Below are positions 7,094-17,623 of a stretch of 64,000 nt of DNA, piece by piece. The position numbers and the translations under genes are program-made. Numbering within the stretch: the first letter of the stretch is position 1; every line of letters begins with the position of its first letter. The stretch covers positions 1 to 64,000 of IMG/VR virus record IMGVR_UViG_3300017776_000001; one strand, 5' to 3'. The notes under the pieces were generated by a model, which worked only from the letters and a program-made list of their open reading frames with translations, was not told the DNA's origin and made no database searches. This stretch comes from a virus.

Positions 7094-7496
7094 AAAATAT
7101 ACACACACCCGACAAGCTAGCAATGAAGACGAATGGTGTTGTAGGGTTCCGTGGAAAGAGACAAACCTGATGGGTATGAGAGAATCACCAAGTGTGTTGT
7201 TTTCCTTTATCATAAACAATGATGACCACTTATGTGTCTTCACACATGACGAATGGTATATTCATGAAGATTTATTTAACCCTAGAGAAAACTGGAAAAT
7301 GACTTTTGGTCTTTGGGATAACACTAAACAGATGTTTAGTATAGATAATTTTCATGCAGAACCGATGGGATTATATGTACCCAAGAAACCCTTACGAAAT
7401 TTAGGTTATGTAGTAGGTGATAGTCTTAATATGACTTATCATACTGATACTATAAATAATGAGAGAAATCTCAAGATATGGAGAAAAGAAATATGA
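7077..7496 (+). CDS. Unknown protein in the modification operon
   Basis: 139 residues, not recognised. Rich in aromatic residues and histidine (WCCRVPWKETNLM, FTHDEWYIHEDLF, MTYHTDTINNER), predicted beta-rich, with a Cys-Cys pair near residue 22. It overlaps the SDR gene by 17 bases and the glutaredoxin by four. Its position suggests an accessory in the same pathway, but no catalytic motif is evident. Confidence 0.7.
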   Translation: MDFLNKKYTHTRQASNEDEWCCRVPWKETNLMGMRESPSVLFSFIINNDDHLCVFTHDEWYIHEDLFNPRENWKMTFGLWDNTKQMFSIDNFHAEPMGLYVPKKPLRNLGYVVGDSLNMTYHTDTINNERNLKIWRKEI

Positions 7497-13445: not shown

Positions 13446-14129
13446 ATGATAGAACCAATGAGATATTATTACGACATACATGACCTAGAACATATCGAAA
13501 ATGTTTATTCGGAACAAACCGATGGTGGTCAAAGAATGTATAATACACCCGATGGTAACAAGTACCCAAGTGTTACTACTGTAATCGGATTAGAAACAAG
13601 AGAACACATTAAGTTGTGGAGACAACGTATTGGTGAAGAGAAAGCAAACAGGATTACAGCAGGTGCATCGAGACGTGGTACTAAGATGCATAATATCTTT
13701 GAAAATTACTTACGTGCAGAGACAGATGATATCGGTATCGAAAATCCCTTACAACTAGAAATGTTTAATGCAGTGCAACCAGTGTTGGATGAGATTCAAC
13801 CTATTGCACTTGAAGCACCTCTATGGTCTGATGAGTTACGTATGGCAGGTCGTGTAGACTGTATCGGTGTGTTCCAAGATGAACTATGTATCATTGACTT
13901 CAAGACAAGTGCAAAACACAAAGATGAGAAATACATCAAATCATACTTTATGCAAGAGACAGCTTATGCATGTATGGTAAACGAATTGACGGGTGAACAA
14001 CCAACTAATCTTGTGACTATCGTTGCAATCGAAGGTGGGTATTCACAAATGTTTATGACAGAACCTTACGGATACATTAACGACTTAGTTAAGTTACGTG
14101 GGAGATATGAATCTTTATACGGAGTATAG
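13446..14129 (+). CDS. PD-(D/E)XK (RecB/MGME1-like) exonuclease
   Basis: 227 residues from ATG 13446 (AGGA at 13433-13436). The core fits PD-(D/E)XK nucleases of the RecB/MGME1 type: TRRGTKMHNIFENYL-like helix (here ASRRGTKMHNIFENYL), LEAPLWSDELRMAGRVDCIG supplying the Asp, then ELCIIDFKTSAK with the D-x-K catalytic strand, and YFMQETAYACMVNEL as the QxxxY helix. Such phage exonucleases degrade DNA ends in recombination or recycling of host DNA. It lies just before gp33 and gp59. Confidence 0.88.
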   Translation: MIEPMRYYYDIHDLEHIENVYSEQTDGGQRMYNTPDGNKYPSVTTVIGLETREHIKLWRQRIGEEKANRITAGASRRGTKMHNIFENYLRAETDDIGIENPLQLEMFNAVQPVLDEIQPIALEAPLWSDELRMAGRVDCIGVFQDELCIIDFKTSAKHKDEKYIKSYFMQETAYACMVNELTGEQPTNLVTIVAIEGGYSQMFMTEPYGYINDLVKLRGRYESLYGV

Positions 14130-14130
14130 T

Positions 14131-14364
14131 ATGATAACAAAAAAAGAATTCTCAAATGAGGTCGAAGAAATCCTAGGTAGGAGTAGAGATGCAAGTAAAG
14201 ATGTGATGGGTGCAATTATTAAAGTATGTGAAACCAATAACATTGAACCCGAAAGTGCAAAGAGACTTTTAACCCCGACACTAAAAGAACGGTTAGAGGC
14301 AGAAGCAAACAAACTTAGATTAATTAATCGAGGAACATCCAGTCAAGGTGTTCTTCCAGTATAG
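14131..14364 (+). CDS. 33: gp33-like late transcription coactivator
   Basis: 77 residues from ATG 14131 (GGAG at 14121-14124). The sequence KEFSNEVEEILGR, AIIKVCETNNIEPESAKRLLTPTLKERLEAEANKLRLI matches my memory of gp33 from T4-like cyanophages, and the position next to gp59 and gp32 is as in T4. gp33 bridges host RNA polymerase and the sliding clamp so that gp55-bound polymerase fires TATAAATA promoters, many of which occur later in this window. The assignment rests on short-sequence similarity plus synteny. Confidence 0.7.
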   Translation: MITKKEFSNEVEEILGRSRDASKDVMGAIIKVCETNNIEPESAKRLLTPTLKERLEAEANKLRLINRGTSSQGVLPV

Positions 14365-15264: not shown

Positions 15265-16052
15265 TAGGAAACGGTAAGAGTAGAATCATCCCCGAATCCA
15301 ATTGGTGGGGATGTAATGCAATCTATAGAGATGGTTATACACCCGACCTACTATTCAGTATCGACATAACTATGCATAGAGAGATAGTTCATAATGGATA
15401 CTATAAAGAGAACAAGTTCGTTGTAGGTGATATGAGTTTCATACCCATGCAACATGTCGACATGTTACGACTAGGACATGAAGGACAAGAAGTCATTGAA
15501 GAGATACATGACGATGATGATTTACTAGTCATACAGGGTGACTTAGAGATAGACAAGTATGTGTCTTTTCTAGGTGTCAACTCTAAACACGTAGACAACA
15601 TTGTTATCTACAATAACGACATAATGAAGAACTTAATGTCGGGGCCTTCTGCAATTGCATATGCATTTCAGAATGGTCATGATGAGATAACACTAACAGG
15701 TTTCGATGCATTGTTTACCGATGATGTGTCAAATGTATATGAAGGTTCAGTAAATTACAAACCTAAATATGAGGAGTGGATGGGTGTCAAAGACATTCAG
15801 AGAGCTCAGTTCCTTGCACTATGTGAGGAATATAAAGATAAGAAGATTTATTTCAAAAAGTCTATTGACGAAATGGAAGAAATCGATTATACTAAACTCT
15901 CTTATTATGAAAGTAGTGAGAGATGGATATTAGGAGAGGGTTACTTACCACATCTTTTGAAGTGGACTAAAGGAACCCCCGACTATGACCGTTATGATAA
16001 AATGACTAATACAATTGTTAATAAAATAGGAGAATACAATGCCAAACGATAG
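15252..16052 (+). CDS. Unknown phage protein between gp59 and gp32
   Basis: 266 residues. MLTIVGNGKSRIIPESNWWGCNAIYRD and TPDLLFSIDITMHREI suggest a Rossmann-like nucleotide or nucleotide-sugar binding fold, reminiscent of DUF115-type proteins, and SGPSAIAYAFQNGHDEITLTG continues that pattern. I recall similar hypothetical proteins in marine phages, but no activity is established. It is inserted between gp59 and gp32, which are adjacent in T4, and overlaps both. Confidence 0.75.
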   Translation: MLTIVGNGKSRIIPESNWWGCNAIYRDGYTPDLLFSIDITMHREIVHNGYYKENKFVVGDMSFIPMQHVDMLRLGHEGQEVIEEIHDDDDLLVIQGDLEIDKYVSFLGVNSKHVDNIVIYNNDIMKNLMSGPSAIAYAFQNGHDEITLTGFDALFTDDVSNVYEGSVNYKPKYEEWMGVKDIQRAQFLALCEEYKDKKIYFKKSIDEMEEIDYTKLSYYESSERWILGEGYLPHLLKWTKGTPDYDRYDKMTNTIVNKIGEYNAKR

Positions 16053-16935
16053 TCTAGATAAATTAAGAGCAGCAATGAACGCTGCATCTACATCACCTAA
16101 AAGTGATAATCTTAAAAACGAAACCGAAAACTACTGGAAACCTGAACTCGACAAGAGTGGAAATGGTTATGCAGTAATTAGGTTTCTTCCTACACCCGAT
16201 GGTGAAGAGATGCCATGGGTATCTTACTTTGACCATGGGTTCCAAGGGCCAGGTGGATGGTATATTGAGAAATCATTAACCACCATTGGTAAACAAGACC
16301 CTGTGTCTGAATACAACACTCAGTTATGGAACACTGGGATTGAAGCAAACAAAGAAATTGCACGTAAACAAAAAAGACGTTTACACTATGTGTCCAATAT
16401 CCATGTTATTTCAGACCCAAAAAATCCACACAACGAAGGTAAAGTGTTCAAATACAGATATGGCAAAAAAATCTTTGAGATGTTGAAAGAAGCAATTTCT
16501 CCAGCATTCGAAGATGAAAAAGCAATCAATCCTTTCGACTTGAGAGATGAAGGTGCAAACTTCAAAATCAAAATAAGAAAAGTTGACGGTTATTGGAACT
16601 ATGATAAATCAGAATTTGATTCACTTTCTGCATTATCAACAGATGAGAATGAACTAAATAGTATCTACGAGTCTGTGTTCCCTTTACAAGAAATTGTAGC
16701 ACCTGAAAACTTCAAATCTTATGAAGAGTTGAAAGAAAGACTCGATAGAACACTAGGACTTACTGGTAATGTTGCAACATCAACTGCAGAGACAATCTCA
16801 GAAGATACAGTAACAGCACCATGGGAAGGTGTCAATAACAATGTCACTGAAGAACCTGCTATCCCTACTGCAGACACTTCAGTAGATGAAGATGATGCAA
16901 TGAGTTACTTTAAGAAACTCGCTGCAGACTCCTAA
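16039..16935 (+). CDS. 32: gp32 single-stranded DNA-binding protein
   Basis: 298 residues (T4 gp32 is 301). N-terminal LDKLRAAMNAAS is the basic cooperative domain; YAVIRFLPTPDGEEMPW, HGFQGPGGWYIEKSLTTIG and KRRLHYVSNIHVISDP are the OB-fold core; the C-terminal 40 residues are acidic, ending DEDDAMSYFKKLAADS, the tail that contacts gp59 and other partners. There is not a single cysteine in the protein, and the usual CPVC region reads DPVSEYN, so the T4 zinc site is absent. TAGGAG provides a strong ribosome site. Confidence 0.95.
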   Translation: MPNDSLDKLRAAMNAASTSPKSDNLKNETENYWKPELDKSGNGYAVIRFLPTPDGEEMPWVSYFDHGFQGPGGWYIEKSLTTIGKQDPVSEYNTQLWNTGIEANKEIARKQKRRLHYVSNIHVISDPKNPHNEGKVFKYRYGKKIFEMLKEAISPAFEDEKAINPFDLRDEGANFKIKIRKVDGYWNYDKSEFDSLSALSTDENELNSIYESVFPLQEIVAPENFKSYEELKERLDRTLGLTGNVATSTAETISEDTVTAPWEGVNNNVTEEPAIPTADTSVDEDDAMSYFKKLAADS

Positions 16936-16949
16936 TCGAGTTTTGAGGG

Positions 16950-17148
16950 GTTGATACTTCTAAGTATATGATGAAACATGTGAAGGTATCAACGAACTAT
17001 GGACGAGGTTGCGACGTGGATGCGATTGTCTTGGGGTCACATAGTAAGGGAAAAACAAACTGGTAACATTAGTATTGTTGGGTTACTAAAATTACGCGGA
17101 GTTTGTTGGTATAGAGCGGGAATGCTGTAAAAGACGGGGCGACTATAC
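16950..17148 (+). ncRNA. Large structured RNA candidate between gp32 and bS21
   Basis: The 233-base gap is G-rich and folds into four consecutive helices. Pa: GTTGATACTTC 16950-16960 with GAAGGTATCAAC 16982-16993 (one bulge). Pb: ACTATGGAC 16996-17004 with GTC-A-CATAGT 17036-17045, closing a wobble-rich inner stem 17007-17013/17021-17027. Pc: AACAAACT 17054-17061 with AGTTTGTT 17100-17107, stacked on GGTAAC 17062-17067 with GTTACT 17082-17087. Pd: GTATAG 17109-17114 with CTATAC 17143-17148. No frame is open. No T-arm, so not a tRNA or complete tmRNA. It ends 20 bases before the bS21 start and may be its leader or a separate stable RNA. Confidence 0.6.
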
Positions 17149-17168
17149 ATTTTAATAGAAACTAATAT

Positions 17169-17414
17169 ATGAAAAATACAAAAAGAGATTTCAGAAAAGA
17201 TTTCAATAAGAAACAAGAACGTAGACCTGAAACCTTTGATATGATATTCCGTAAGTTCAAGAAGAAAGCTGAACGAGATGGAACTGTGAAAGAAGTTCGT
17301 GATAGAAGATACTACATTAAACCTAATGAAGAAAGAAACATCATTAACAATCAGTTGAAACGTAGAAAGAAACTAAACAAACTACAAGCAAAGAATACAT
17401 ACAGAAGAAAGTAA
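17169..17414 (+). CDS. rpsU: Ribosomal protein bS21 homologue
   Basis: 81 residues. Residues 20-65 match bS21: ETFDMIFRKFKKKAERDG, VKEVRDRRYYIKPNEER, then a basic helix QLKRRKKLNKLQAKN. The F-D-x-x-x-R-x-F-K and YY-x-KP signatures are those of cellular S21. An extra basic N-terminus (MKNTKRDFRKDFNKKQERRP) is longer than in E. coli (71 aa). bS21 sits near the 3' end of 16S rRNA and aids initiation; phage copies could replace the host protein and bias translation (inference). No Shine-Dalgarno is visible before its ATG, which follows the folded RNA. Confidence 0.87.
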   Translation: MKNTKRDFRKDFNKKQERRPETFDMIFRKFKKKAERDGTVKEVRDRRYYIKPNEERNIINNQLKRRKKLNKLQAKNTYRRK

Positions 17415-17623
17415 TGTCTAAACAATGGCACGGTGGAAAAGGTTCCAAGAGACGGAACTCAGACGAACAATCTTATGCAGATAATTGGGAGAAAATCTTT
17501 GGTAAGAAAGAACCCGAAATAAAAGTCAGAAAAGTAACACCAAAAGGTGCCTCATCAAAAGTCCATTCGGACAAAACCAAAATCATACCTAGAAAAACAA
17601 AGTACTACGATAAGATAGATTAA
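17414..17623 (+). CDS. Small basic protein, marine T4-like family
   Basis: 69 residues. SKQWHGGKGSKRRNSDEQSYADNWEKIFGKK is a pattern I recall from cyanophage hypothetical proteins; the rest is basic and probably disordered (KVRKVTPKGASSK). Its ATG overlaps the bS21 stop (TAATG), so it is translated with bS21 and may share a ribosome- or RNA-related role (inference). It converges with the minus-strand gene; the two stops overlap by four bases with no terminator between. Confidence 0.75.
   Translation: MSKQWHGGKGSKRRNSDEQSYADNWEKIFGKKEPEIKVRKVTPKGASSKVHSDKTKIIPRKTKYYDKID

Follow-up and report, generated by a model that had tools for sequence, protein, structure and literature searches.

The translational operator of T4 gene 32 is a small pseudoknot in the 5' leader of that gene. 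The element described here is likewise an RNA structure tied to gene 32, but it lies 3' of the gene, is ~200 nt long and, in one of its two forms (type B), has a promoter box of its own. CfrI of cyanophage S-PM2 is a noncoding RNA of ~225 nt, of unknown function, that is antisense to psbA and to the gene of a homing endonuclease (PMC2984593). Both are noncoding RNAs of similar length in marine T4-like phages; the gp32-adjacent RNA, however, is intergenic and has a conserved four-helix fold, and the description of CfrI sets the two apart. T4-like cyanophages also encode the RNAs glnA, manA, wcaG, and PhotoRC-II (PMC10665884), which are compact, conserved, structured RNAs of marine T4-like phages as well, but are described as cis-regulatory, whereas the genes downstream of the gp32-adjacent RNA vary or are absent and the RNA has no Rfam match. 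In the stretch of DNA analyzed here ("the window," the first 64,000 nt of the IMG/VR virus record IMGVR_UViG_3300017776_000001), the RNA lies shortly 5' of a ribosomal protein gene, as do the autoregulatory leaders of ribosomal proteins, although the link to this gene (bS21) is missing from type B and, in the other form, type A, is interrupted where genes or promoters have been inserted. Phage tmRNA (alpha_tmRNA, RF01849) is a further phage-encoded structured RNA that can occur near gp32, as in Melnitz and the locus L056, but the window has no tmRNA match by Rfam or ARAGORN. In those two cases the tmRNA is ~2-4 kb upstream of gp32, at L056:1-290 (alpha_tmRNA, E 3.6e-25) and, in Melnitz, at L312:1-157 (annotated SsrA).

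At the gathering score, none of the 4227 models of Rfam 15 matched in the window, in the loci L019, L020, L024, L026, L041, and L046, or in the type B loci L053, L058, and L064, and permissive Rfam searches returned only implausible weak matches. ARAGORN and Rfam found no tRNA or tmRNA in the window, and no tRNA-like domain was seen. A DNA search of an isolate phage collection (50,697 records) yielded no relative of the RNA, and when genome contigs were searched with a 15-base pattern from the RNA, none of the matches listed models as the RNA (best 17.3 bits, E 0.05). Literature searches, which covered papers outside subscription, turned up nothing that describes the RNA. An earlier note on this DNA had proposed an RNA that it could not match to a known class, and the Rfam searches agree. 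We consider it likely that the element is a phage-encoded structured noncoding RNA of ~170-215 nt and that it represents a new family, linked in marine T4-like phages to the gp32 locus. If this is right, an undescribed RNA family is present at a core replication locus of a large and common group of marine T4-like phages, where it was overlooked because annotation seeks proteins and known RNAs.

The gp32 locus of the window

The RNA occupies the gap between a gp32-like gene and the gene of a phage bS21 protein, with the following features in the region:

14098-14364, + strand: gene for a gp33-like late-promoter transcription regulator (PHROG 254, E 5.2e-16)
16039-16935, + strand: gene for a gp32-like single-stranded DNA-binding protein (PHROG 224, E 1.8e-102), the constant upstream neighbor of the RNA
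16943-17156, + strand: structured RNA element (type A), whole match of covariance model R1 (99.2 bits, E 2.6e-24)
16947-17156, + strand: gap with the four-helix RNA
17169-17414, + strand: phage bS21 gene (PF01165, E 6.2e-8; PHROG 21469, E 1.2e-9), outside the conserved unit
17414-17623, + strand: orf3, a small basic open reading frame of 69 aa (tblastn synteny), whose counterpart adjoins the 3' side of the RNA in subtype B2

The gp32-like protein has 598 relatives in IMG/VR. Profile searches of Pfam and PHROG assigned orf3 to no family, and the gp33-like gene means that a T4-type late transcription gene is present in the window. The earlier note had placed a multi-helix RNA of ~200 nt between gp32 and bS21, and the position, the gene order, and the four helices all bear this out. 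Its description of the gap also holds: there are only chance open reading frames of 32-43 aa and no conserved open frame, the 3' end of helix P4 at 17148 is 20 nt upstream of bS21, and these 20 nt 5' of the bS21 ATG contain no Shine-Dalgarno sequence in the window. The label "pelagiphage" for the window was an assumption of that note. A model search of the 72,301-base record recovered a single copy of the RNA.

Fold, covariation, and strand

An IMG/VR scan with gp32 returned 80 loci, the 50 closest of which have 64-81% identity. The covariance model R1, from whose training set the window was left out, nevertheless matches the held-out window with the coordinates and score given above, and it matches all 50 of the closest loci directly 3' of gp32, each with at least 94 bits; the strongest R1 match distant from gp32 reaches 17.3 bits (E 0.05). 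The parts of the fold in the window are:

16947-16950, + strand: conserved G tract (GGGG) 5' of P1, with conserved G columns in A1/A2
16950-16993, + strand: helix P1 (16950-16959/16983-16993, 10 bp, bulged G16985)
16965-16970/16977-16982, + strand: apical stem of P1, 6 bp
16996-17045, + strand: helix P2 (16996-17004/17036-17045; 6 bp, bulged A17039, 3 bp)
17005-17035, + strand: lineage-specific apical extension of P2
17033-17036, + strand: conserved GGGG of P2
17046-17053, + strand: conserved, unpaired P2-P3 linker AAGGGAAA, with near-invariant G and A columns
17054-17107, + strand: helix P3, outer stem of 8 bp (17054-17061/17100-17107)
17063-17067/17082-17086, + strand: window-specific apical stem of P3
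17096-17099, + strand: conserved GCGG of P3
17109-17148, + strand: helix P4, outer stem of 6 bp, with an inner R-Y covarying pair (G17116-C17140)

When a 251-base region was folded as a single sequence on the + strand, the energy did not stand out from chance (z -0.83; of 200 shuffles, 43 were equally stable), and an argument for structure from this one sequence is therefore weak. Among 37 of the 50 closest loci, RNAalifold identified 24 consensus pairs, 16 of which have double changes. An alignment of 57 distinct sequences of type A, the window among them, has 98.4% standard pairs compared to 70.0 +/- 0.7 in shuffles, and its double-change cells number 499 compared to 140 +/- 9; fitting this alignment to the model favors the structure, and the relatives do not count as independent, but the controls are exceeded by a wide margin. 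Sliding the named structure by 1-3 columns lowers the standard pairs from 98.4% to 28-41%. The covariation test that the earlier note had named as a check came out decisively in favor of the RNA, with compensatory changes at 25 of the 31 pairs in these 57 sequences. All 7 modelled pairs of P1 covary (98% of cells paired), and double changes occur at 6 of 9 modelled pairs in P2, 6 of 7 in P3 (99% paired), and 6 of 8 in P4 (99.1% paired). As the compensatory changes go beyond both the shuffled and the slid controls, we regard it as certain, on this comparative evidence, that the element is a structured noncoding RNA.

Conservation extends to unpaired positions. There are 32 near-invariant unpaired columns (at least 95% conserved), 20 of which are G, and the interior of P4 contains a GCGGG...UGCUGUAA...GGGG region. 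The loop region of P1 has a conserved AUG...UGA motif, which was considered as a mini-ORF and rejected, as its frame and spacing vary among the sequences; it is read as structural. A pseudoknot between AGCA in the P3 loop and UGCU in the P4 loop would be possible in many type A sequences, but is not claimed because L014, L019, L026, and others lack AGCA and yet have UGCUGUAA.

The pairs also indicate the strand. G-U cells outnumber A-C cells by 64 to 8 (36 to 8 once the pair richest in G-U is left out), which places the RNA on the sense strand of gp32. The minus strand folds better than its shuffles (z -3.03), but an RNA from that strand is ruled out by the same asymmetry. The asymmetry likewise makes it extremely improbable that selection acts on the DNA, for example on a replication origin or on protein-binding inverted repeats. 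Such a feature would suit a site that adjoins a replication gene and whose inverted repeats are conserved, but it would not account for the tolerance of G-U over A-C, and at one P3 pair 28 of the 57 sequences have G-U, which a DNA cruciform would not favor.

Type A loci and the bS21 gene

The type A RNA starts 8-22 nt after the gp32 stop irrespective of which gene comes next. A scan with a short RNA pattern, in which gp32 was not used, found 24 further type A loci, and every one of them lies 8-22 nt 3' of gp32. The RNA is followed by bS21 in most type A loci, with the start of this gene 5-53 nt past the RNA; among the 50 closest loci, the gap from gp32 to bS21 is ~160-235 nt where bS21 comes next. 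A DNA methylase gene (PF01555, E 1.5e-23) is located between the RNA and bS21 in 12 of the 44 distinct type A gap sequences (L003, L006, L008, L009, L013, L032-L035, L039, L048, and L049); the L049 copy is missing ~100 bases at its 5' end.

Promoter boxes also occur past the RNA and ahead of bS21. In L001, L002, L021, L028, L036, and L037, a TATAAT box past the RNA has its end 6-8 nt 5' of the bS21 ATG, and in L029 and L030 a TATAAATA box lies just 5' of this ATG, likewise past the RNA. Initiation at these boxes would result in a bS21 mRNA without the RNA, and the sequence of the six TATAAT loci suggests that their bS21 is made from a leaderless mRNA. Several of these six also have a TAGACA-like box upstream. 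A GGAG or AGGAG Shine-Dalgarno sequence is present at bS21 in L040, L043, L044, and L047, and its absence in the window is thus not conserved among loci. The type A RNA at L002:4846-5023 has a replaced P1 and lacks the G tract of the P2 loop, and is possibly a decaying copy or a recombinant.

The earlier note had suggested that the RNA is a 5' leader controlling bS21 and bound by its product, as in the autoregulation of ribosomal proteins. The short distance from the RNA to bS21 in most type A loci is consistent with such a leader, but the RNA tracks the position of gp32 and not that of bS21: the methylase gene intervenes in the 12 gaps listed above, bS21 has its own promoters 3' of the RNA in some lineages, no bS21 follows the RNA in type B, and phages with bS21 exist that have no RNA. 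In the whole genomes of HTVC008M, Melnitz, and Mosig, bS21 is present and neither R1 nor R2 (a second model, built from subtype B1 below) gives a meaningful match; in HTVC008M, Mosig, and AG-345-L05, and also in Melnitz, gp32 is closed by a plain hairpin and a T run. Because of these phages, bS21 was rejected as an obligate partner of the RNA. As a general role for the family, the bS21 leader is already contradicted, and we consider it very unlikely; the earlier reading stands for a real multi-helix RNA outside Rfam and falls for the autoregulatory leader. All of the long RNA-bearing contigs examined also encode a phage bS21. In pelagimyophages, bS21 is a core gene and riboswitches were not found (PMC7029224).

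Type B loci, the late-promoter box, and candidate roles

Type B is a diverged form of the RNA at more distant gp32 loci, mostly of 51-62% identity. A pattern from the type B P3 found 62 stretches; this pattern fixed the P3 sequence, and the conservation of P3 in type B is therefore partly selected for. Of the type B loci, 58 include the gp32 stop, and all 58 have an exact TATAAATA box in the interval from gp32 to the RNA, compared to 0.52 expected from shuffles, although these loci are related and do not represent 58 independent events. The box is located 6-32 nt past the gp32 stop and 13-26 nt 5' of the first G tract. This motif, as (N/T)ATAAATA, has been reported to be the late promoter both of T4 and of marine T4-like phages (PMC2984593). 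No TATAAATA box occurs 5' of the RNA in any of the 44 type A gap sequences. Upstream of open reading frames TATAAATA is enriched both in the window (6 of 10, 0.5 expected) and in the type B loci (15 of 48, 2.5 expected). In the window, exact TATAAATA boxes on the + strand at 7451, 7666, 28951, 35704, and 49090, each 5-27 nt 5' of an open reading frame, are candidate late promoters.

Two subtypes retain the box despite differing spacing and flanks. In B1, the stop of a convergent gene lies 0-18 nt beyond the end of the RNA and no same-strand gene is directly downstream, so the RNA is the only evident product of the promoter, and the two form a natural unit. The RNA of B2 is followed by an orf3-like gene, and the late promoter could serve this gene with the RNA as its leader. 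In neither case is bS21 downstream of the RNA; where seen in type B, bS21 precedes gp32 by ~1.5 kb. This variety also bears on whether the RNA may be a ligand-sensing riboswitch for whichever gene comes next. A riboswitch would be expected to combine a compact fold with strongly conserved unpaired positions, as here, but it would have no directly following same-strand gene to control in B1, where an aptamer with an expression platform is not found; moreover, the downstream genes are unrelated across branches (bS21, methylase, orf3-like) and no Rfam riboswitch matches. We therefore find a riboswitch scarcely credible.

Cross-matches of R2 link the two types: this model reaches E 1e-5 to 1e-12 on B2 and, in the correct place, E 8e-4 on a single type A member, L026; cross-matches of R1 to type B have E values of 0.02-0.25. 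Both types share the R-Y covarying pair inside P4, the GCGGG...GGGG segment, and GCGG in P3, and GUGUC is found in the P1 loop of many members of both. With modest cross-matches, identical position, and shared motifs, types A and B look like one family.

Taken as a family, the RNA appears to stand on its own in these phages and not to act as a control switch of the bS21 gene. In type B, the promoter box suggests that it would be made as a free-standing late transcript. In type A, including the window, the lack of a TATAAATA box would place it on the gp32 transcript, where it is probably released or protected. The second option of the earlier note, a stable RNA processed from the gp32 message, thereby stays a candidate for the lineage of the window. 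The main rival is a cis role, in which the fold serves the stability or processing of the gp32 message as a 3'-end element that protects against exonucleases or marks the end. The constant distance of the type A RNA from the gp32 stop and the lack of a promoter box of its own in type A are in line with this role, as is the T run that often follows P4 (CTTTTTTT in L011 and L012; CTTTTTT in L020 and L036). On the other hand, the late-promoter box of type B would give transcripts that exclude gp32, the near-invariant loops and linkers exceed the needs of an mRNA-end stem, and HTVC008M, Mosig, and AG-345-L05 manage with a plain hairpin and T run. We regard this cis role as a real possibility, but an unlikely one.

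The RNA probably acts in trans in its folded form. The argument is one by exclusion: trans action is likeliest because the B1 unit has nothing downstream to act on in cis and because conservation in the loops and linkers extends beyond the paired positions. The conserved G-rich unpaired segments may form a tertiary core or a protein-binding surface, and this core or surface would engage, late in infection, a protein of the host or the phage or else the ribosome. More speculatively, and with considerable doubt on our part, the RNA could be a late trans-acting factor that remodels the host translation or RNA machinery in virion production, alongside the phage bS21, with the G tracts as a core, quadruplex-like or protein-binding, for which known phage RNAs offer no parallel. 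The partner of the RNA, once found, could point to a host function whose control late in infection many marine phages require.

The 3' side of gp32 is occupied by another short element in the cyanophage-like loci L056, L059, L063, L068, and L079, with the pattern AGTAAAGTCC...GTGCAGTAAGTC...GTAACACCACA...GACT, the ends of which could pair. At this site, no Rfam match was obtained in L056, L059, L066, L068, or L079. The loci L066 and L069 have a shorter cousin of this element, GTTGCAG.GTAGAC.CGAACTAAA.
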